NCBI GenBank assembly: GCA_009869945.1
Contig: WIXG01000101.1
Span: forward strand, 160,865-224,864
Length of the DNA: 64,000 nt
Reading direction: 5' to 3'
From: Mesaphorura yosii
Taxonomy: Eukaryota; Arthropoda; Collembola; Poduromorpha; Tullbergiidae
The notes under the pieces are model-generated. The model was not told where the DNA came from. It searched no databases and worked only from the letters and a program-made list of their open reading frames with translations. This document shows, one piece after another, positions 16,626-64,000 of the stretch. The translations under genes were made by a program, and so were the position numbers. Position 1 is the first letter of the stretch. Every line of letters starts with the position of its first letter.

Positions 16626-19600
16626 ATGAGGAAGCATGGCAGACACGACTTTGGAGAGGTAGGAATGGAGGGCGGCGGCTTCGACCGGTCACCGCGAAGA
16701 GCCAAAGTGGTGCCAACTCAAGTGGGAAGACTCTTCTATGCATTTGGATTTCTTGGTGCTACCTACCCAATTGCAGTTATCATTTTTTCTGTCATTATTG
16801 TGCTACTTTCGTGGTATGTCACAATGCTATAATTTAACACATATGAGGAAGATCTCAAAGAAAGTTTGAATAATTTTTTGTTTTCGCACTTCGCAGTTTT
16901 CCTTTGTGGAGCATTCCGACTTCCACAAGCGGAAATCGTCCAAAGGAATTTATAACCACTTATGAAAACTATGCACCGCCTTCCGCTCTACACGAACGGG
17001 GCGTAAGTTGGCCAAGATGGTACAAAGGATCTCAGGAAGTGTTTGTGCAACAGATACTTGTCAAATCGTTCATCCATCCCTGGACAGCTGATCTTATAAT
17101 CACCGATACATTCAGAGCGACGTTGGCAGAGTCTTTTCAAGTTTTGGATGTCATAAGAAATGACTCGTACACCAAAAACGGAAAGTAAGTTTAGACTCCA
17201 GTCTGAACTATTTATTCCTCTGTTCTGGCTTTTTTTCAGTGAATTTACGCTAATCTTCCCCACATTTTGCAATTCTAGATTGTTGGATTTGGAAAAGCAC
17301 TGTTTTCATGTGGCGGATGTGAAGTCAAAAGCACTGAAAGGAAAGAATTCTATGCTACCCGAGCACAGCTGCCTGATCGTGTCTCCAGTCAACTTCTGGC
17401 ACGGAAATTACGAAATGTTTCAAAATGATCCAGACATCTTGGGAACAATTTTGAACTACCGAAGTCGTCTGAGAAGACGGAGTGGACTTGCGGAGCTGTT
17501 CCTTGGTCTGAATGTGCGGGATACCGGTTTAAAGAGGAATCCCTTCAAGCCACGACAAAGACTTATCTCGTACTCGGTCACGCTAATTCTTCAGAAACAC
17601 GATCCAAAGTAAGCCATGGCCAAGAATTTTGACGAAGGAGAGCAAAGTTTGAATAGTCTTATCTTTTACAGGTTGGTGGAAAGATTAGAGGAGAAATTAA
17701 AGTCATTTTATGGGACAAACATTGCATTTTCGGAAGATGAAAGCGTCGACAAGAATGAGACAGCCAGAAAATCGGCCACGAAGGACAAAAGGATCGTTCA
17801 CATTTTCTACCCACCACAACTGAGTCTTCTTCAGTTGATGCCCTTAATCATCACGTACATCGCCGTGTTTTCGTACCTGTACTTCTCGCTCAAGAAGGTG
17901 GAAATGGTCTACTCCAAACTTGGCATGGCTTTTGCTGCGCTCAGTGCGATTGTCATTTCGTTGTGCATGTCTGTCGGTCTCTGCACGCACTTTGGAGTTG
18001 CGTATCAAGTCAACGCACAGTAAGTTCGAATTTCCAATTGGAATACCGGTCGTTTAAATAATTTATCATGTAATTTTCTATTTCAGAGCAATTTTTCCGT
18101 ACGTCGCAGTAATTATTGGGTTAGAAAATCTGCTTGTGCTGCTGCGTTCCGTCGTTTCCACTGCGCCGCACTTGGACGTCAAGATTCGTGTTGCCCAAGG
18201 CCTCAGCAAAGAAGGATGGAGTATCATCAAGAATTTATCTGCGGAAGTGACGATCTTGACGATCGGATTCTTCACTTTCATTCCGCAAATTCAAGAATTT
18301 TGCATCCTCACCATCGTGGGACTCTTGTCCGACTTCTTTATTCAAACTTTCTTCTTCTGCACTGTGTTATCAATTGACATCCGACGAAACGAGCTGATAA
18401 GAGGTACACAAAACCCAGCGAATGCATTCACGCCGTTTCGGAAACCAATTCATCCAAGACTGGACCGCATAAAAAGCAACTCCGCATTGGCCAACGGCTC
18501 AGCCGGTGGAGGCAAGATCGGAGGTTCACTTCAGATCGTCGCGCCATCTCAGTTGAGCCCAATTTTGGTCAAGATTCCGAAAAGACTTAGAGTGCTTTCG
18601 TTTTGGGCTAGAACACGTTTCTTCCAAAGAATCTTCATCATTTGCATGGTTGGCTGGATTTCTGGCATCATATTCGAGTCGGGAATAATGCACATCAACG
18701 TCCAAGACGAAGCGGACGATGTCGTGATACCAAACATCGAATTGGACGAAACGTCGGCTCCGAAACAACCGATCATCGTCTCCGTCGCTCAAAACGCGTC
18801 AGGACGGTTTGTGAACAAAACTTTCCGCGACGAATTTCGTGGCACCCAGGAGGTGTCGTTGAATGACAGTGATCCAAAGACCTTGAACAACAAGTTTCTG
18901 AACGAACTGCGAGATTGCAACCCAAACACATGGAGGCGACTTTCCTGGTATCACTGGCAAGTTCTACTTGGCATCTACAACGTCAGCCTTACCGGGAAAT
19001 ATATTTCCATCCTTCCACCGTTATGCGCTACTTTGACGATCGACCCGCACCATGCGCTCCTAAGAAGAAATGTTCACGAGCAAGACCAAGCAGCAAAGTT
19101 TAATTGGCATAATTTCGAGACTGGATTTGAAACGATGGACGGTCCAGGTAAATTTTGTTTTAGGTAGTAATTTTATACAACTATCATTGAACTATTTGTG
19201 TCTGCCAACAGATGAGCACGAAAAGAGCAGTCACAGCCAATCCAACTTCAAAGAAGATGGTTTTTTTTACTCGTTCTCTGCTTTGGACGATCCATATATT
19301 CCAACCACTCCAATTGAACTGGCATTGGTTGTGCTTTTGGCAATTCCGAGCGCAATCTTCATCTCCTACTCTTTAATCGTTGTGTATCGGTGTGTGTGCA
19401 CCAGAAATTATGCCGAATGGAGATCGAGCTGGGGCTGGGGCCCCGACAGTGGACACGATTATTACACACAGGTAAACAGTGTACTAGAATTATCTCAAGG
19501 GCAAATTAAGACATTATTGGGTTGTTCGTAGGTTGTTTTTGAAGCTGTGCCTTTGGTGCTTGATGGTCACAGAGAAGAAGTTGAATGCATGGGTAGTGAT

Positions 19601-44520: not shown

Positions 44521-44636
44521 GAGCAAAATCCTTGTAAATCCTTTCCTTTTGGTGCAATCAAAGTGAGATTTGAATACGACTATTTTATGTTCTTTGTCTC
44601 TGTGGTTCCGCCGTGTTTTTGTGAAATCGACTCAAC

Positions 44637-45749
44637 ATGCCGAAGAAAATTGACACCGAAGTGGAACGAACGGTTCGTAGGCTTTCCAACGAAGGGGTTT
44701 CACAAAGAGACGTCGTAAAGCGGATGGCAGCGGCCGGAACAAAAATTTCCAAGTCCACAGTGGCCAACATCGTCAACTGCATTGGAAATCGAAGAAACCA
44801 CAAAATGGTCGGGCTCACATCTCCGAAAACACCACACTCTTTCCATAGCCGCCCATCAAGGTCAAAGGTCATGATCAAGAAGATTGACTTATATACAAGT
44901 AAAGAGAACCCCCCAAGTCAAAAAGAGATGGCTAGGCGGCTGAATACGTCGGAGACTACTGTGGGAAGGATTATCCGTGAGGATTTGAAGAAGAAAATTA
45001 AAAAGAAGGCCCGTGTGCACGCCTTGAAGCCATCACATGTCCAAAATCGAATGACGAATTGTCGCAAACTTTACGAGCGTCTGGCTGGGTCAAAGTGCGA
45101 ATTCACAGTCACACTGGACGAAGCAATGTTTTATCTTCAAGACTGTAATGGTACCAGGAAGATATACTACACAAAACCTGGAGAACCAGACCCAGAATAC
45201 TGTAGCACCAAGAAGGAGAACTTCGGTTAGAAGTTTATGATCGTTGGAGCTTTGACAGGCCGTGGCACTGTGCCATTGATCAAAGTACCAAAAAACGTCA
45301 AAATAAACTCAGATTACTACATTGGGAAGGTACTCAAGCCAATTTTGGAAATTCAAGTTTCAAAAATGTACCCAGGCGAGACAAACAAGATCTTCGTGCA
45401 TCACGACGCCGCTTCGTCGCATACAGCAAAGAAAACGCAAGCGTACGCAGCAGATTTGAAGTCCCGACTCGGAATAACTCTGATACCAAATTCAGAGATC
45501 CCTATAAAAAGTCCTGACGTAAGTCCGATGGACTTTTTTGGATTTGGGTACTTGAAGCAGCGTTTGGAACAAAAGAAAGCTAAGACGCTAGATGGTGTCT
45601 GGAAACATTTGAAAAAGGAATGGAATGGAATCACCGCAGAAAAGGTTCAAGAAGTGTATGGGACATGGAAAACTCGACTTAGATTAGTTAAAGAGGTTCA
45701 GGGGCAACACATTGAACAAACAAAAAAGATTCACAAGCGAAAAGTGTAG
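44637..45749 (+). pseudogene. Mariner transposase with one nonsense codon
   Basis: One reading frame of 371 codons including both stops. Two N-terminal helix-turn-helix units (SNEGVSQRDVVKRMAAAG; SQKEMARRLNTSETTVGRII) bind the inverted repeats in this family. The catalytic triad is visible: Asp in VTLDEAMFYL, Asp in FVHHDAASSH, and Asp in SPDVSPMDFFGFG, 41 residues after the second. A TAG at 45228-45230 interrupts the frame between the first and second Asp; no frameshift is seen. The stop would cut the enzyme before two of its three catalytic residues, so this copy should be non-autonomous unless the codon is read through. Confidence 0.9.
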
Positions 45750-48342: not shown

Positions 48343-51204
48343 TCAGGTGTCTGCTGGTTGCTGGGAGGTTACGACTAATTTTGCTTGTGCCTGACGCGAC
48401 GAGTTCTTCGACAACTGTTGGGGCTTCCTCTTGAATAGATTCAGATTCGGAGTTGAGTTTTTGTCTTGAGAAACTTGAGGTAGGCTGACCACCGTTGCGG
48501 AAGTGGTTGAAGCTGTAAAAATCACTGCTCTCGCTCTGGGACTTGTGACGCTGGGTTTGTCTGCGCTCGAAGCCCCCTCTCCATCCTCTGGTCCGGGCTT
48601 TCTTCTAGTCCCGTCTCTCCGGAAGTTCTTCCTGGCTCTTCCCAATTTATTCTCAGGACCAGGCCCTGGCGGCGCTTGCTGCTGTTGCAAAAGGCTGGCT
48701 TCCGGCAAAATGGTGCGTGTTTGAGTTCGGAGAGAGTAGGTGCCCTTCACCATGGGCATCGGCGATGGATACTGGGAGTCTTTCAGTATACTGATTGGCT
48801 GGAACTGTGCCCGAAGGTTTGTGGGACACATTGAAACGGTTGGACGCCCTATCAAAGCAAACCAAGAGCAGCTAGGCGAGCTCTTCCTCAATTCTTAGGA
48901 AAACATAATATGGAAACCTACCTAGCCTCGCAGAAGCAAAAGCATTGTGCTGAGGATTCGCGGCGTTGATTGGGTGCGCCGCGGTTGGAAACACGGCTCC
49001 TGTCAAGCCGCGAGTGTTTCGGGGCGATGGCGAAGTTCTGCCCTCGGGAGTTCTGCCTCTGCGACTCGACAATGGCAGCTTCTGCCCAGCAGCAGTGATC
49101 TGCGCCTGCGCTTGCTGTTCTTGAGGGTTTGTGCCCCTTGGAGTCGCGCCCACACTCACGTTTTGAGCGGACGGAGCAGCCTGGGGCTGTGGCCAAGGCT
49201 TGACAATGTGGTGCAGAACATTTGACTTCTGTTCAGCATGAGCTGCATTTGATGCTTCTGATGGCGACAGCTGGGGTTGGCTTGGCCTGCTTAATTTTTC
49301 CCACTGTTAGTCAAGGATTCAAGATAGTGCCGACCTTGCTGATATCATGTCAACAAAAGGGCTCACTTTACATACTTTGGAGGGTTGCAGTTCATATCGT
49401 AGGTCTCCTTCGTCTTTTCATGCACTTTAGATTTATTTTCACGCACGAATGCGGGAGAACTTGGCGAACGGCTCGTCTTCCTCTTCTTCGAAGGAATTTT
49501 GGTCCAGATATTCTTCTCAGCAGTCACTTGCATTTGACTCGCTTGCTCCTTTTGGGGCAGTGAGTCGAGGTCATCGCTGTTGGTGCTCGAACTGGGTCGA
49601 GGGATGGTGCACGTGTGAATTTGAATAGGTGATCTCACTTCAGATCGATAGGTTTGACTATCTATTCGTGGTTTGTTCCCATTCTCAATTGCAGATGCAG
49701 ATGCCACTGCCACTCCGAATCCCTGAACGAACAATTCATCAACAACAGAATACAGAACGATGATCGTGTACGTCGAAGGCCTTACCTTCTCCTGGGAAAA
49801 CAATTCTGGAAAAATTTGAAGAATTCGTTCGCTCAGAGCGTCAATGCTTTGGAATTTGCCTTGCACTACGAGTTCCAGCGAGCTCACAGCCTCAGCCATG
49901 GATTCTACAACATTCAGTCTTAAAATTCCAAAATTCTCTATACAAAATGACCGAATGACTTACGAATCAATTTGTAGTAGCGATCCTCTGTTCGAAATAA
50001 CTTCCCTCGGACTTCTTGGATTTCTAAATTCAGCCTGTGATTGTGCCCGTAAGCGTTTTGCAGGGCTTCGGTGAGCTGGGCTGTTTTGGGGTCGTTCTCT
50101 TCCGTCTGCACTTCAGCGTCGTTGGCATCGGGAGTAGATTTTTGTGTGGATTTGTCTTCATGAACAACGGCAACAGGTATGGGCATAGGCACGGCCGAGG
50201 GCGTGGGAACCAATTTCTCACTTCGAGCTCCGACGTCCTTGCCTTCGTCTTCGTCGTCAGGTTGCTGAAAGTAGCTGATAAACATTTGCGTCAACTCCGA
50301 ATTGGCTCCGGGAACTGTTCCGTGAGCTTCAAAATGTCGAGATAGCGCTCGTTCTACTCGCGACTTCAGATCGGCTTTCCGGGAATCCTAAAAAGTGGGG
50401 TACTGTTAAAATATTAAAGTGTGGCTGAATCACAGCCAACAAGTGACTAACCTCGAACAAGTCCTTGAAACTTGTGTGGTTCATCGGATCCGGGACAAAG
50501 GGCAATGCGTAAAGTGTCAGCATGTTGGCATCCACGAAGACGGTTTGTGATTTATCCTGAAAGAACTGCTTTAGCCAATCCATTCCTTCCTTCTTCTCCA
50601 CTTCGCTTCGATTTTGGCGGTAGGGAACAATTGCTGCTGCGAACACGTGCAGGTAGAACGTTATTCCTCCAACGGTGTGCCCTTGCTCGGGTTCCAAGTC
50701 GTTGACAAACGCGTTCCACAGCTGTGAAGTTCGAATTAGGTGTTAAATCACTGACGGAGGATAAAGGAGTGAAGTTCCCTACCGCAATCAGTTCAACTTC
50801 ATCTTCTTCGTCCAAAGACTTCAACAACGCTTGGGCGTCCTTCTGTCGGAACGCTCTTCTCGGGAAGGAGGGCGGTGGTAACTCTTTTGGAAACGGCACT
50901 TCTTTGTCGTCACACTCCTTACAAAATGTGGTGTAGCTCTTTTCTAAACCGCAAGACTCTAAATACTGGAAAGTAATGTTGTAATGATAATCAGTGAATC
51001 GTTGTCAGTTTCAGCCGAACTCCAATGTTAGCTCCAAGAGATTTGCCTCGAGAGTACCTGAAGTATTGTCGCATTCAGGTTCTGAGACAGTTTTGCTGGA
51101 TCTTCGTGCAATGCACTTAAGGTGAGTGTGCTTCTGATTTGGGCAACCGTATTTCGTATTGGTATTGCCATCGCAGATGCAGGTGCTATTTCGTCTCGAT
51201 TCAT
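48343..51204 (-). CDS. LisH-domain protein with ARMC9/WDR91-like N-terminus
   Basis: Eight exons on the minus strand (51204-51058, 50965-50783, 50721-50452, 50387-49964, 49904-49786, 49722-49376, 49286-48922, 48848-48343) give about 786 residues. A LisH dimerisation motif (ILQYLESCGLEKSYTTFCKE) spans about 47-66. The block that follows it in ARMC9 and WDR91 comes next: ITFYLHVFAAAIVPYRQ and TLYALPFVPDPMNHTSFKDL (about 179-198), then an RVERALSRHF helix. A coiled coil lies at about 305-340. From about 380 to the end the chain is Pro/Ser/Gln-rich and disordered, with many basic motifs. No armadillo or WD40 repeats are visible. The YALPFVPxPMxHxSFKxLF wording is closest to ARMC9, a basal-body protein; WDR91 acts in endosomal phosphoinositide control (literature). 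Splice phases are consistent throughout. Specific function is unresolved. Confidence 0.75.
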
Positions 51205-51667: not shown

Positions 51668-54490
51668 TTACATGTTAAGAGCTTGTGTAAAAGGTGCAGC
51701 AGTCGTCGTGGTGTTCGTATTCACTGTCGAATTCATCGCTATCCACTCTGTATACCCCTGCGCAGGCAAGAGGCTTCCGGCAACGCAGGCGTTCAGGAAT
51801 CCGACGAGTATTCCGCCAAGGAACGCTCGCCCGATCGTTTTTGTCAGGTCTGCCCTTCGCTCTGGAGTCAAAAGAGACCCGAGTCCTCCGATTTGAATGC
51901 CGAGCGAGCCAATGTTTGCAAAACTGAGGGAAAAAGAAGCACCAATCACGATATTTTCACTGCCCAAAAATTCTTTTCATTCCCATGCAATGCAAGAGAC
52001 GAACCTGCAGAGAGCGAATGTTGTGATGGCTTTAGTACGAGGCTGAAAAAGTGAAAAAGATTCATGAACTGCCGAAAACAAGGCCATTGGCATTTAAACT
52101 TACAGATAAAGAAAGTTTAACGAGTCTGTCATAAGCAATGAATTCGTTGGCCACAATTTTTAAGCCGAGTAGCGTTCCGACCGCATCGACCTCTTCCGGG
52201 TCGATTCCGAGGATGAACGCGATTGGAATGAAGCATTTGCCCAAAATTGACTGCACAGCACAGCAATACAAAGCAATGATTAATCAAGTGTGCCCAACTG
52301 ATTAGGGCTAGTGTTTCAATCATAATTAAGAAATTACCTCAAATGTCAAACCGGTGACTCCAACGAGGTCTCCGAGCCAGGAGACGATGGCATTCAGGAA
52401 GGACACGAACGACACGAACGCGATTATGTTTGCGATGATGCAGCCAATGAGAATTGTGCCCTGCATTGCGCCCTGAGCAGCTGCGTCGATCGCGTTGGTT
52501 TTGGATCTGCATTGGACCAACACAAAAATTGTTTAGTTATCAGTTCTGACTCCTGGCATATGCATGTCAAGATAGCAGCATGCAAGCATTTGTGTGGCGT
52601 GACATACTCTGTCTTTAGCAGTTTAATTTTCTTCGACGTCGTCTTTGATTCCAGGGCCTCAGGATAAATCAATTTAGCCATGCCAAGAGCGGCAGGCGCC
52701 GCCATCACGGACGCAGACAGCAAATACGCTGGCTGGATTCCCAGGCTGATGTACGCTGCCATCACAGTACCTTAAAATACGACAATCGAGAAAACTCATA
52801 AACTCACTCCTTCGAGATTTCGCTTCGTCAGCAAAAAAATAAATATCACACGTACCGGCAATTGTCGCAAAACCTGAAAATGATACAAAACAGCGTTATT
52901 CAAAGTCGAAATGCACTCAATTCACATGCAAACCTACACATGTGAGTTTCAAATGTATGCCACCATAGTTTTACCTGCCGTCATGACCGCATTCAGCTCG
53001 GAATTTGTCAGATCATTCAAGAAAGGTTTGATGAGCAGTGGAACCTCGATCAGTCCAAGGAAGACGTTTGCTGCGGCGCTCATGCTTTCGGCGGCAGTCG
53101 TGCCAATTGTGGTCTGCAGCAGCCAGCCGAGTTTCACGATGACCCACTGCATTGCTCCGAAGTGGTACAGAATGCTTATCACGAATCCGAAGAAGTAAAT
53201 GACGCACAGGGCCTAAAACGATAAATTGATTTGAAATATTGATTTTGTCAAGCACCCGAAGTTTTGTTTACCATCTTGTAAACTTACTCTGAAGACAAAT
53301 ATTGGTTTGAAACTCAGGCCCTCGGCCGGCTCGCCGCTTGACAGGTAGCCGTACAAAAAGTCTGTGCCGGTGAACGTAAAATCCAGAAATACTTTTACCT
53401 AAATTATGGCAGAATTCGAAATTAGCGTCTGGTGGGAATTTCAGGCATTCATATACAGAAAAGCTAGCTTACTTTCTGACTGAGGCACGTGAGCACGGCG
53501 TAGCCGTCGTCCCACCTGAGGATCACGAGCCCGAAAAGAAACTGGAGGGCGAGCGCCCAAAGTACGTGCCTCCATCGGATCCGCTCTGGGTTCTTGGAGC
53601 ACACCAGACCAATGAACACAATGACGAGGACACCACCCGCCGAAATCAGCCGACGGCGCTGGCCGTAAGTGTCGATGGCCAAGAAGGTTATGAGTGCGAT
53701 GCACGCGATGAGTGCGACTCCGACGCTCGTGTACCTGCGAAATTGAAACCCATCTCATTTTGCCCCCAAAGGCGCTCACACGGAAGAAAAATTGCGCTTA
53801 ACGCTTACCAATAACTCCAGATCTCCTTCCAATGCTTGCTCGCCGGTTCCAGAATTCTCTTCTTAATCCTTCGTCCAAACACGCGTTTAATGACAAAATA
53901 GTACAGGAAAGCCCAGACACAAAACGCATACAAAATGACTAAAAATCCCACTCCGTTGCAACAGTCAAATGGTAAATTATTACTTCGGTTGTGCTCAAGA
54001 GCGAGAATTAAGTACACGTGAATGAGGATGACAGGAATTGCAATCAAAACTATTTGCAAGAATTTCGTGTACTTTGTATAAAAGTCTGAGCAGAGTTCAC
54101 GTAATTTCACGATGCACAGGGACACAATGTTGCTACTCGAATCGGCATCGGGCGGAGGGCCGTCTTCAGGTTCCTTGTCGTGGATCGAGAATTGGTTGTC
54201 AGGCACTGATTTCCTGGTGCGGTCATCGCTGCCGTCATCATTCGTGTGTGCACTTGTGGGCTGTTCCTGGCAGTACAGTGGAAAGAGTTTTAAACTTAAA
54301 ATGTAGCTAAATTAAAGGCTAACCAGGATAAACTTACGGAATTCAGGTCCAAGGACGTGAAAGACCCTACGTCGTCGTTATTCTGACTTTGATCTGGGTC
54401 CTCAATGTCGTAGCTGTTTCCAAATTTACTATTTCGAATTCCGTTGGTCTTGAATCGGCCGACTCCCTTCTTATCTTCCCCGTTTTCCAT
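51668..54490 (-). CDS. SLC28: Concentrative nucleoside transporter (SLC28/CNT)
   Basis: Eleven exons on the minus strand (54490-54338, 54266-53809, 53734-53473, 53398-53288, 53212-52975, 52873-52856, 52770-52608, 52506-52338, 52250-52104, 52042-52005, 51923-51668) encode about 670 residues. CNT proteins import nucleosides with Na+ or H+ across the plasma membrane. An acidic cytosolic N-terminus is followed by membrane helices and the CNT core: IGTTAAESMSAAANVFLG, PLLIKPFLNDLT, GFATIAGTVMAAYISLGI, SASVMAAPAALGMAKL, LNAIVSWLGDLVGV, VANEFIAYDRL and TTFALCSFANIGSLGIQIGG. The sugar-binding Glu (NEF) and Asn/Ser (ANIGS) are present. The normally conserved QTEAP in the first re-entrant hairpin reads LIEVP at 382-386. 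One exon has only 18 bases (52873-52856) and encodes part of GFATIAG. The start ATG at 54490 is the first in frame. AATAAA (-) lies near 51479. Confidence 0.93.
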
Positions 54491-57234
54491 CGTTTCAGCT
54501 GTTGACTGGCTTGACTCCCAGCTGGATTTGACGACTAACTTTGTGGAGGTCACACAAGATAGAAACTAAAACACGTTGGGCCTGGGCATGATTACGCCGG
54601 GCCGGCCGGTGGGTTTGAATGAAATGAATCCGCCAGTTTATTGTTACACACTTCTCGGAACTGACACACTGGATGAGGTAATTGTAAACTGTAAATATTT
54701 AATATCGACGCAACACTTCGGACACTGCCAACAGTTTACTGACATACCTCATCTGCTGCTGCAGCTGAAGCACGTCATCGTCATGCTGAATGCCAGCATT
54801 AGCATTAATGCAAACTACGTTCAGGTCAGTTGCTGGTTAAGCTTAAAAGTAGATCAGGTCTTCAGCACGGAGTTTGTACGCAATTGTACAGGAAATAACA
54901 AAATTAAACGGTTTGCCACTACCCTTCTTCACTATTTGAATTGTTTATCACTCTGCTGACTGCTGCTGTAGTGCATTTCACAAGAATTTGTGGCTGGCCG
55001 TTCTAATTCTGACTCTAGCGGACTCTAGACTGTGTGTTGGCGATTGGATTGCAATTGAATTTTCCTCGTAAACTTCTTGGAAGCTGACACAAAATTCTAG
55101 CAGGCGAGTCGAGGTGAGTAGCGAATTTCTGTCCGTCTGATGGCTTGGGTTGGTGTCGACAGATTCGACTCATTCGTGATTCACTTCTTAATTGCTGATG
55201 GATTCTCTGAATTCATCGTAATTCTAATTCGTTAACAAATTGCTGTGCACGCGCACGTGCGCGTTCGCTGGCTTCACGATCACAATTCACAACGCAATGG
55301 AATGTATCACAACCACATCTGATAAAAGCAATGCAAATTGGATATGTTCGTTTAGTATTCAGAATGCACTTCCTCTGTGAATCTTAAATAGACTGAATGA
55401 CTGGCACCTGGCACCTTTTGAGGGAGAGAATTTCCTTGTGCGTCAACTCCCCGAGTCAGTATGATAATTATGATTATGAGCAAACTGAGATTTGGTTTCT
55501 GCATCTCTGCAGCACGAGCAATTTTCAAGGACCGTGGACTTTGTGTACACGAAGCCGCCACGTCTTAGTCTTAGCCATAAGTCAAGTCGTAATTAGCTCG
55601 TAAATATGTTGGAGGACATAATTACGTAACGTGTTGTATGTTTTCGTAATTTTAGTTATTCCCGAGGAATGTCAAAAGGTCAAAGGTGTCCATCCTGCGT
55701 CTGGAGTGGAGGAATGTTTTCAATCTCACGTCCACGTCAACAACAGCGAAGCTCGAAGCTGACTGACGATGGCGAAATTCTGACGACTCTTCATGACAGA
55801 CAAGACTTCTTGACGAATTGCGACTTGGACGCGAGTGTCAGATTTCTCTTGACCAAAAATAGATTGACGAGGCGTCCGCCTAAACCTTGCCTCATTGTAA
55901 CACGTTCACTCACTCACAAAACAAATACTCGTTCGGCTTTGTCGTCTCCCCAAAAAAATTTATCTGTTCTTGATGCAAAGGAGGGTACAAATTATTTGGC
56001 GAAGAACAATTCGTGACATGTTATGGCACGACACGACACGGCAGAGCAGAGCTTTCAAATTTAGTGTGCGCAAAAAAGGAGACGACACGAGAAGCCTTCC
56101 TTAATTTAACTTGATACTTAAGGCAGGACAGGAATTGCTACGTACATGAATTGCCCGTATTTATGAGTAAGAACTATAAATCTTGAAATGAAAGGACATT
56201 TCAGGCAACAGGACGGTGACGCGAAGTTGCGTGCAATGACGAGATAACTTTAGCTTTGGGGCACCACGAAAATGCGACGTGCGCGGCAACGCGATTGTTT
56301 CCTTCTGAGCCATTGCTAATTATACTCCGTCATTTGTATTACACTGTCCATGTGCGTGTTCGTGTTTGTGTTTCAATCATTCACAATTCACAATTCAACA
56401 GCACGCGCACCTTCCTTTTGTTACTTCAATCTTCACAAAATTCGCAATTCGCATTCTTCGCGTAATGATGTCATTGTCGTCGGAGTCGTAAATTCGTGTT
56501 CGTCTTGTTGGCTGTGTTGCAGGCGGCATGACTTCTTGATTTATGCCGGTTCAAGGCGAATGCAGTCAAGTTAAAGTTGAGTTGAGTTAACTCATCGAGA
56601 AATTTTTTATTAAAAATCGACTTCTTGATAGCAGCTCGGTATTTTAATAAATATCAAGCATTCACTTGATACAAGACAACGTAGTACAAAACAATTGCAG
56701 ACGGTAATTAAGGTAGACGAGTAATAACTTTTGCGTCAATAATAAGAACAAAACTTGTACTAAAAGGTAAGACCAAAAGTAAAATTAAAGTTGGAAGGAA
56801 GACGGTGACTGTAAAGCAATGATGATGACTGACTCTGACCCTGAAAATATAAATCTTGGACGAGGACTGACTTTAAATAAAAGTTAAATGAGGTATCTTG
56901 TATCTAGCAGTTAATCGGTGGTGAAAACAGTAAACGACCGGGACCGGGACTGAACTAACAGCAATTCTGTTCTAATTATAGTCTAGCTACTCTGCACCTG
57001 GTCTAACGCTATACGCTAATGACTTACAAAAATACTTGATATATGCATATACAAAAGCTAGAATTCGCCAATTTGCGAATCCGATGCCGAGTTCACAAAT
57101 TCGCAAACAGCTAAACTACAGCTAAACTACAACTACGCATATAATCATAGACATTGTACAGAATAAATATTATACTGAATTCGGCGAGGAACCTCTGAAC
57201 AATTATTACAGTGCCGACAACTCCTGCCGAGCCC
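54491..57234. other. Intergenic region between SLC28 and the propeptide gene
   Basis: About 2.7 kb, without a well-supported gene. A minus-strand frame at 55504-55352 begins with a signal-peptide-like stretch, and a plus-strand frame at 55669-56016 lacks recognisable features. The right part should contain the 3' untranslated region of the propeptide gene. Confidence 0.35.
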
Positions 57235-60200
57235 CTACCTCGTCCTCGAGGGCAGTCGGGAGCCCTGACTCGATGAGGGTGACTCCAGAAAAATGTTCTC
57301 AATTATGACTCTCTTGCCGCTGGCGTTGCCGTTCTCTTCTTCGTCGTCGTTGACGTCAGTCGTGAGGTTGTCGTCTTCATTCACTGCCACGCCGGCCGCG
57401 GCGCCGCCGTCGCCAAACTCGGTGACGGTCACGGGGATGCGGGTTCGGAAGTACCGCCTCCTGTTTCGGTTGCGACCGAATTTCGTCGACGCTGTCGCGA
57501 AAATGTGACGAAGTGGGTGGTGGGCGTCCAGCTCGAACTTGGTGGTCGTCTCAACATTCAACGTTGACGCCGACGCGTCGTCCTGCTGCATTTGCATTGC
57601 ATTCTCGGCTGACGACGTGGAGAACAAATCGCTCCTGCCATTGCCGGTGTGAGCGTAATTTCCGTCGACTGTATTTGCTTCTGGCTGCGGCTGCGGTCTG
57701 GCCTGATTTTGACTTTGACCGTAGTGGTGGTGGTGGTGTCTTCGCCGGTGTTCGTCGCCTGAGCTCCTCCATGGGTTCTGCGGTGGAAAGCTGCCACTAC
57801 TTCTCGGAGCTTTGAACGTCCTGCCCATTGCGAGGAAGGGGCTGTTTGCTGAAATGTCAACGTAGCCGGTAGCCGAAGCAGAAGCGAAGGCCGATGGAGG
57901 AAGTGCCAGCGTGCAAACTTCAAGTAGTGGAGCCTGATCGACTGACAAGTTCAGGATGGAGCCGATTTCTTCAGGGAGTCCGGTCGAATCTAAAAGGGCA
58001 AAGGGCGTCGACTTATTCACCGAATCTAGGCATCTGGGCACTTTCTATTAGGCACTAGAAATTATGTTCAAAACTTACTTGGCCTTGTGCAGGGAGCATT
58101 TGCAAAAAATTTACTTGGGTCAATCAAGTCATCGTCTTCATTCTCCACTTCGAGCGTCAGACCGTAATTTGTACCGCGTTCCGCCCACTCTTTCACGGCT
58201 TTCTGGATGTCAAATTCGACCCATTCATCTTCTTTGGTTGAAAGCATTCGTGTGTCAAGCAGCTTCTTCTTGTCTGCAGGTAGAATCAATCACAAATTAA
58301 AGTACAATGCAAAAAATGCCATTGCCTGTACAGGTCTGGTCAATTATCCCACTTACAGTGGTGCTTGGACACTGGCGTCGTGTACCAATACACGGAAACA
58401 CGGATCCTTTCATCAACGGCGGCATTTGTGTTCATTTCAAAGCTGTTCCTTAGCACCGGAATTTGAACGGTTGGCGCTGGCCGGGTCATATCGTGGGCAT
58501 TTGTGTCATTGCAGGGTTCGGCGCGGGTCGGGGCGGCAGGTGGAAGTCCCTGAGCATAAAAACAGTCGGACTGATTAAAATCTGGGCACCCACGCGCCAT
58601 GCACTCGGCACGGCACAGCTACACGTTAATTAAGTATCAGGTACCTGTCTTGATGAATCCGTTCCCCTCTTGAAGAGCTTCAGCTTGGCTGAGATGACCG
58701 TCTCCGTCCCAGTCGCAGCCGCAGCAGATGGAATATTTTGTTTTGTCTGGAATGGATTAAACGGCTGTCTCATGACTGCGGCTGCTGCTGTTGACTGGCC
58801 GCTCATTACCGGCTCACGCCCGGTCACGTTAAAGTACAAGTGGAACAATCCAGATCTGATCCAAGTGTCCGAATCAACATTCGACGGCACTCCACCTGCA
58901 AAAAATTCCACGTAGTAATTAGTCGGCTGCTCGTCAGTTCGTCTGGCTCTGGCAGGGCGGTATTTCGAATTAATTCGGATTAGGTCATCAGCACAGCGAG
59001 CGAATCAAAGGATCTCGTTATTCATTTCGCTTGCTACCGCCGTCCTGTCTTGTCTGCTATAATTTAATTATAGACCTGCCGCCGGCCTGGCAGGTGGGCG
59101 AGTGTGAAAGCGAATTGAACTTACATGAGGCCGAGTAGGTCTGCAGCTTGCCAGTGAACGGGCTTGATGGAGTTGACCGGCCCATCTGCAAATGCACGCA
59201 AAAAATGAATGAGATTATGAGATCATCACTTAATTACATGTTCCGTTTCTTTATTGCGGTTTGCAACTTGCAATTTGCGGAACGTGAGTCACGATGATTA
59301 TGATGAATTAATAGGGTAACAAACCTGAGAAGACACCTGCGAAGTTTGAGAAAACGACGGCATCGACGGGGCAGCCGCAGCGGGCAGTCTGCCCTGGCCA
59401 AGTGTGTTGAGGACGTAGAGTTTAATCGCATTCAGACGCATCTCGCGATCTCTGCGAAAAGATTCAAAATGAATTAGCTCAAATGGGCTGCTTACACTGG
59501 AGGAGTTGGGTTTTTGTTACTCAAATTCCACTCTTCACTCGAAGTAGTTTAGAATTTAGTAATTTAGATTTTACCATACTGGCAAAGTCTTTCTAGTGTT
59601 AGATTTTAGTCGGTATAGCTCAAACCTTTGAAGCTTCAGGCAGAGAAGATAGAAAAGCGGAAGCAATCCCAAACACGTGAATTTTTTGCGTTCATGCGAC
59701 TTGCGATTTGTTTTTGTCATGTTTTTCACAAATTCGGAAAATTCCGTTAGCCCCAAATCAGAAATTCTAGTCATTGTCTTCTGAATTCGCGTTTGGGTTC
59801 GTCTCCCTTATCGGTGATTTCCCGATTTTGCCTCTGTTTCTGAAGGTGAGCGTCGAGCGTAAACGTAACGTGTTGTCGATGCGAACGTGACTCGAGCCTC
59901 GAACTCAATCAAGCACCGCAATAACAACGGGTTTAAATTAAATAAGATAAACGCTGTTTACGAGGTACGAATACAATTATGAATCGCATTTAAGGCTGGC
60001 GATCTGGAGCGAGCTTGTTTTGATTCTTTCGCGTTCCAGACCGAGTTGTAAAATTCCAGTTTCGAGATGTGAGGCGAGTAAATACAAAAAGCGTCCGCAG
60101 TCTGCGTCTGTGTTGATGTTTTTATGCTGTACAACTGTTTCGTCTGCTAATCCATTAAACGATCGAGGAACAAGGCAAGGGCAGAGAAAAATGACGACGA

Positions 60201-63200: not shown

Positions 63201-63597
63201 GTGGCCCCATCAGGCCATCGCTTTGCTGCACAAATCACGATGCAAAAAAGTGACACAGTTTCTCGCAAATGTCGGCTACGCCGAATTGACAGACTAATTC
63301 AAAGTACTGTACGAAAGCTGATTAGAAGTTAGAAAGCGGCAGGTCAAATCAAGCCAACCAAAACATGCAATACAATGCAAGTTGTGCAGATTTTGCGTGT
63401 TGCCTGTTTACCTGAAGGACTGAACCGTCTCCGAAAAGCACAAATAGCTTGGCACAAGGTTGCAGCTGCCGCTGCCACCTGAAGAGCCGGTGCCGGCGGC
63501 AGGGGAAGAAGACGCATTAAAAACTGCCGTGTCGTTAGTCTCAAGTTTCCCACTGGCGCGACCGCCACCATCACCATGGGACGTAGCCGTAGCCGGA
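57235..63597 (-). CDS. TGF-beta-family propeptide protein without a cystine knot (5' partial)
   Basis: Seven exons on the minus strand (63597-63412, 59451-59325, 59185-59125, 58895-58645, 58549-58357, 58273-58079, 57989-57235) give at least 589 residues. The first enters in phase 2, so the signal-peptide exon lies outside the window. The TGF-beta/activin propeptide is recognisable: a Cys pair (CNLVPSYLC), the first helix EMRLNAIKLYVLNTL, a strand SAKLKLFKRG, IRVSVYWYTT, and the hallmark EWVEFDIQKAVKEWAERGTN followed by YGLTLEVENE. These elements form the straitjacket that holds the mature dimer in the family. The final exon should carry the cystine-knot ligand but instead encodes a low-complexity region (His run, acidic Asn/Asp runs) with two cysteines and a basic RNRNRRRYFR stretch, ending SRLPSRTR. 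No later exon with the CxC/GW pattern is seen up to the SLC28 gene. Confidence 0.75.
59452..63411 (-). other. Large first visible intron of the propeptide gene
   Basis: Nearly 4 kb with no supported exon on either strand. It contains an ATGCC pentanucleotide run (60731-60758). Such long 5' introns often hold enhancers; none can be identified by eye. Confidence 0.4.
60731..60758. repeat. (ATGCC)n microsatellite
   Basis: Five exact ATGCC units plus ATG, within an intron. Confidence 0.85.
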
Positions 63598-63810
63598 CTA
63601 TGAAGATGAAGTGGACATTCGCACAATTAAAGCACATTTAAAAGATGAGGCTGATAAACGGAATTTCGTTCCCGTCACCAACGCACTCGTTAAACATTAC
63701 AGAAAAAGAAAAGAAGGAAACGTCGCCCACCACCACGCCTACGCCACGGTAATTGCAATTGCGAAAGGAAAAGCTAATTATAATTGCTAATTGTCGACGC
63801 GGTACTAGTC

Positions 63811-63877: not shown

Positions 63878-64000
63878 GTTATGTCCCATATAAACGTACT
63901 CCATTCGAGCGGAGGAATGGTGGCGGACAATCAATCCAACTAACACATCCTATGCTTCCTACGTGACATGAAGGCTGTATAATGTCCAGACTTGTGAATT

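Follow-up and report, generated by a model that had tools for sequence, protein, structure and literature searches.

The window analysed here, 64 kb in length, is the final part of contig C101 from the 93 Mb Mesaphorura yosii genome, which is assembled in 1127 contigs; window position 64000 is the contig end. A gene encoding a TGF-beta propeptide lies on the minus strand from 63597 to 57235. It consists of seven exons that join in one continuous frame through to a stop codon, with exon-chain phases of 2, 0, 1, 0, 1 and 1, GT at all six donors and AG at all six inner acceptors, which agrees with an earlier note in which the exons were described as spliced in frame. The interval given there, 57235..59451, covers six of the seven exons but leaves out a further exon at 63412-63597. 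The visible part of the spliced protein is at least 585 residues long, numbered from a point inside the first visible exon.

The first visible coding exon (63412..63597, minus strand), recognised from its splice contexts and frame, carries a C-x7-C motif and then the approach to the alpha-1 helix. The AG at 63598-63599 is a candidate acceptor only, the donor is GTAAAC, and an intron of approximately 4 kb follows. The evidence that links this exon to the chain consists of splice sites, frame and a motif, and no Pfam family matched its frame. The alpha-1 helix exon (59325..59451, minus strand) was placed by splice sites, frame and a shuffle-tested motif, REMRLNAIKLYVLNTL; within the visible part, this exon contains the first in-frame ATG, and it has an alternative in-frame donor 9 bases upstream of the donor used. 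After a short exon that is phase 0 in and phase 1 out (59125..59185, minus strand; splice sites and frame), the propeptide arm is encoded on the same strand by exons at 58645..58895, which includes the first strands of the arm (LYFNVTG ... ISAKLKLFK) and where the Pfam match starts at residue 188, at 58357..58549 (RIRVSVYWYTT; splice sites, frame and Pfam match) and at 58079..58273 (LLDTRMLSTKEDEWVEFDIQKAVKEW...NYGLTLEVE), which has the strongest propeptide match (PF00688, E = 3.1e-8 with this frame alone). The last exon (57235..57989, minus strand), assigned from splice sites, frame and codon score, encodes the end of the arm followed by a low-complexity tail of 218 residues, and closes with the stop codon.

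The contig ends 403 bases beyond the first visible exon and the 5' end of the gene falls outside it, so that a start codon with a signal peptide would probably lie upstream, past the contig end. Downstream of the stop codon, a pattern scan for which no chance level was set found two candidate polyadenylation hexamers on the minus strand, AATAAA at 56606..56611 and, closer to the stop, ATTAAA at 56643-56648. Coding potential was assessed with a codon score trained on 1773 codons from the same genome, with intergenic 300-base pieces as the reference. The true frame ranked first of six in three of eight pieces, namely the tail and the exons at 58549-58357 and 58273-58079, but not in the remaining five; the score therefore supports the tail without being sufficient to prove each exon.

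When the spliced protein was compared with Pfam, two families were returned at E<=1, and the TGF-beta propeptide, PF00688, was the only one above its cut-off (E = 4.5e-10, 40 bits against a cut-off of 25.8, profile positions 125-214 of 242). A match to CBM96 (E = 0.05) fell below the cut-off. A single exon frame (58289-58068, E = 3.1e-8) matched the propeptide on its own, while the other five of the six frames searched individually had no match. The same locus was recovered in a genome-wide search with the propeptide profile (C101:218995-219129). The earlier statement that all elements of a prodomain are present is not borne out by these results, as the N-terminal half of the protein had no Pfam profile match and is supported by the short helix motif.

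Shuffle tests, in which the compared segments were selected by eye, relate these two parts to ligand genes of the same genome. For the arm, the score against the gbb-, dpp- and myoglianin-like propeptides was reached by 0/2000 shuffles in each case; comparisons with the third BMP, maverick-like and C67 segments were no better than chance (scores reached by 400, 986 and 705 of 2000 shuffles, respectively). For the helix motif, the score against the ALP-like ligand gene on C90 was reached by 3/2000 shuffles, and those against the myoglianin-like and gbb-like genes were at chance level (905/2000 and 318/2000). A search of solved structures at E<=1 returned two matches, the TGF-beta2 (E = 0.33) and TGF-beta3 (E = 0.74) proproteins, neither of which is significant. 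With the 162-residue arm as the query, the next match in the genome after its own locus had an E-value of 1.4, and on this result a recent duplication of a ligand of the same genome was rejected for the arm part. Eight N-x-S/T sites are present in the visible part of the protein.

The tail occupies the place where other family members have the cystine knot. It is cysteine-free, 81% of its residues are A, E, G, K, P, Q, R, S, D, T, N or H, compared with 73% in the preceding part, and its frame has a codon score of 0.28 bits per codon, compared with -0.14 +/- 0.06 in the intergenic pieces. It had been called low-complexity and His/Asn/Asp-rich; the complexity is indeed low, but the commonest residues are Ser, Ala, Arg, Thr, Gly and Asn. 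Within the tail, a motif scan found a furin-type motif, RNRR, at 57457..57468 (minus strand), and a cut at this position would free a 73-residue C-terminal piece that is itself of low complexity, with no cysteine and no knot. Thus, the combination of furin site and knot is absent, as had been noted, although a furin-type motif is present. A count of only two cysteines, also given earlier, applies to the last exon read from stop to stop and is incorrect for the visible spliced protein, which contains six, of which the last exon encodes one.

Downstream of the propeptide gene, on the same strand and approximately 2.7 kb beyond the stop codon, the next recognised gene encodes a concentrative nucleoside transporter (CNT); measured from its likely start codon to where the conserved domain ends, it extends over 51776..54490 (minus strand). 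It was identified with Pfam (Nucleos_tra2_N, E = 4.7e-17; Nucleos_tra2_C, E = 1.3e-7, the latter just below its cut-off) and in the genome search (C101:212640-213590). CNT matches in the genome were found on only two contigs: the window holds one gene and C831 a tandem pair. Past the CNT gene, the next recognised gene includes an Armc9 CTLH-like domain (50332-50742, minus strand, E = 1.4e-18). Elsewhere in the window, a sterol-sensing domain of the SREBP cleavage-activating type (PF12349, E = 1.6e-31) is encoded at 18058-19164 on the plus strand, and two adjoining plus-strand frames at 44625-45746 resemble a mariner-type transposase by eye. In Pfam, the first of these had a weak transposase helix-turn-helix match below the cut-off and the second had no match. 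In the genome as a whole, four matches to odorant-binding proteins (best E = 1.8e-5) hint at a hexapod; a search for odorant receptors returned nothing, a result that does not demonstrate their absence, and COX1 was not found either.

The Anachronism (Ana) protein of Drosophila was reportedly described by Ebens et al. in 1993 as a glia-secreted glycoprotein that inhibits neuroblast proliferation and is not known to be one of the seven TGF-beta family members of the fly. CG8083, which we take to be CNT2, presumably lies directly adjacent to ana in the fly, the published passages supporting shared bands only. In those passages, ana (CG8084) is located at 45A1, and this position falls in the bands of Df(2R)BSC271 (44F12-45A12), which deletes cnt1 and cnt2; CG8083 appears with CNT1 and brp in a fly QTL gene list, and is grouped under symporter activity in an excerpt of another fly paper. 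Seven TGF-beta family members are credited to the fly in the available part of one paper (PMC7017013). In a domain table from another source available in part (PMC3901678), 'Transforming growth factor-beta, N-terminal' is the only domain of Ana, a secreted glial glycoprotein. This table is the sole statement on Ana as a knot-less propeptide found in the literature passages available.

This listed architecture and the CNT neighbourhood make orthology with ana the best reading of the propeptide gene, a reading drawn from domain content and gene neighbourhood rather than from direct alignment to fly Ana. We conclude that the gene is likely to be the ortholog of Drosophila anachronism, i.e. a stand-alone TGF-beta propeptide without a ligand domain. 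Counted against this reading are the extent of the Pfam match, which covers part of the profile and leaves the N-terminal half to a short motif, and the position of the 5' end, with any signal peptide, beyond the contig. The insignificant matches to the TGF-beta2 and TGF-beta3 proproteins and the small share of pieces in which the true frame scored best were weighed in the same way. An anachronism-like gene is not a novel gene type, as a propeptide-only architecture is already on record in the fly. The interpretation offered in the earlier note is supported as regards a propeptide gene that lacks a ligand domain, but missed this precedent.

Cystine knots were sought in the whole genome with the PF00019 profile, which returned 10 matches at E<=0.001 on eight contigs and 15 at E<=10 on the same eight contigs (best 14 candidates scored), none of them on C101. 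Between 50.0 and 57.2 kb, the minus strand was also scanned for cysteine motifs, and three isolated ones but no knot were found. The search for a missing knot exon, which in the earlier note covered the 2.7 kb downstream of the gene, now extends to a profile search of the whole genome, in which knots are found on eight other contigs and none at E<=10 on C101. The observation of a propeptide gene without a ligand domain is confirmed, with the corrections given above.

By eye, we take the knot matches to represent ten genes: dpp-like, gbb-like, a third BMP, myoglianin-, activin-beta-, ALP/dawdle- and maverick-like, and three divergent genes, one on C67 and two on C831. The divergent gene on C67 (92-95.3 kb; L030) is related by eye to those on C831, and frames upstream of it may encode a propeptide absent from the Pfam matches listed. 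With names assigned by eye, the usual insect ligand set looks complete without the propeptide gene. As knots of the usual ligand types, on this reading, appear elsewhere, the propeptide gene is not one of them broken. This bears on the possibility that the gene is not an anachronism ortholog but a canonical ligand gene whose knot was lost independently in this lineage, and which is decaying or has been re-purposed. The alpha-1 motif and N-terminal cysteine pair do resemble the ALP-like gene on C90 (3/2000 shuffles) and a furin-type motif is still present after the arm, both in favour of such an origin. However, in addition to the knots found by eye elsewhere in the genome, the arm has no close paralog, the seven exons keep an open frame and the CNT neighbour matches the fly ana region, and we consider loss of a knot from a lineage-specific ligand improbable.

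A TGF-beta family gene is found beside CNT at a second locus, on the 19-kb contig C831. There, at about 3.4-13.8 kb (L031, L032, L033), a tandem pair of CNT genes precedes two divergent knot genes, which are likewise in tandem but lie on the opposite strand. The first knot gene is BMP-like, with BMP6 as its best solved-structure match (E = 1.3e-11), and the visible exons of the knot genes encode a hydrophobic start, a linker and the knot. No propeptide on C831 was among the matches listed by the genome profile search, but this absence is weak because the search listed propeptides for only three of the eight knot contigs (C371, C446 and C17). Indeed, a propeptide on C90 that could be read by eye was missed by it. 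Gene order and strands differ between the two loci, being convergent on C831 and tandem on C101. When the frames of the window were compared with C831, the clear matches were the CNT frames, accompanied by three weak matches of other frames (E = 0.003-0.009). A common origin of the C101 and C831 arrangements is unlikely, and the fact that CNT has a TGF-beta family gene as its neighbour at each locus may reflect coincidence or a trace of old linkage. A common origin of the tail with the linkers of the C67 gene and the two C831 genes was also considered and is unsupported by shuffles. The score of the tail was reached by 162/1000 (first C831 gene), 857/1000 (second C831 gene) and 552/1000 (C67) shuffles, and that of the whole visible protein by 151, 288 and 54 of 300, respectively. 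We regard as very unlikely a split system, in which a CNT-linked ancestral TGF-beta gene was duplicated and divided to give the C101 propeptide and the two C831 knot genes, such that an Ana-type propeptide and a BMP-like ligand may pair in trans.

It is highly unlikely that a true knot exon has been lost to misassembly or is reached via alternative splicing. The contig does stop just past the first visible exon, and an activin-like knot exon on C165 (167033-167305; L026) lies approximately 50 bases from the end of its own contig, from which its propeptide part is absent. However, the 3' side of the propeptide gene is inside the contig, where the candidate polyadenylation hexamers lie between the stop codon and the CNT start, and C101 is without a knot at E<=10 among the best 14 candidates scored. 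Moreover, on C101 and C165 alike the gene is oriented away from the contig end; joining these ends could not splice one gene to the other, and the two therefore cannot be halves of one gene. A missing knot exon was thus rejected on the genome-wide profile searches, the cysteine-motif scan and contig-end orientation. It is just as doubtful that the 73-residue piece freed at RNRR is the active product, a small non-knot ligand that replaces the TGF-beta domain and has the propeptide as its chaperone, as the motif sits at the expected family cleavage position, after the arm and before the C-terminal piece, but the piece itself is low-complexity and cysteine-free.

If the gene is the ana ortholog, a stand-alone TGF-beta propeptide is conserved across arthropods, and its retention would indicate that the knot-less form is functional. 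Propeptides normally wrap, and can silence, the TGF-beta family dimer, and tether the dimer to the matrix. A free propeptide could therefore be a natural antagonist of, or matrix carrier for, the growth factors of other cells, and for an Ana-type protein this idea, put forward in the earlier note as a secreted antagonist or carrier, is plausible. The protein would be secreted, its arm would fold as in other TGF-beta family members, and it would act by binding a partner in trans. Candidate partners are dimers of the activin or BMP type and matrix components, for instance perlecan. Growth-factor signalling would thereby be restrained, for example to hold neural stem cells in quiescence, which is the role of Ana in the fly. 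On the premise that the gene is ana, we put the chance of this trans-binding model at about even.

According to the available text of one review, glial Ana is needed for neuroblast dormancy in the early fly larva (PMC10913833), and in that of a second, Trol, the fly perlecan, is believed to promote neuroblast reactivation through antagonism of Ana (PMC7179833). In the parts of these reviews available, neither names a receptor for Ana (PMC10913833, PMC7179833). Reading the gene as ana raises the testable question of whether Ana binds a TGF-beta family dimer and silences it, or whether perlecan holds Ana.

In its propeptide arm, alpha-1-like motif, N-terminal cysteine pair and furin-type motif after the arm, the protein resembles the TGF-beta, activin and BMP proproteins, but unlike them it has no cystine-knot ligand domain that could be found in its gene. 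Lobster myostatin, in the available part of its description, has both propeptide and knot (PMC4018349). The inhibitory myostatin prodomain is, in the passage available, a propeptide that binds and silences the ligand (PMC4520684). It is cut from a full precursor, whereas the propeptide gene described here encodes no ligand. A ligand-binding, ligand-silencing propeptide like the free myostatin prodomain is the working model for an Ana-type protein. Likeness to fly Ana, known from a domain listing and chromosome bands alone and not from sequence, length or tail, lies in a TGF-beta propeptide that is the sole recognised domain, with a knot domain unlisted for fly Ana in the table available (PMC3901678), and in a CNT neighbourhood, as the published passages place fly ana in the same chromosome bands as CNT1 and CNT2.
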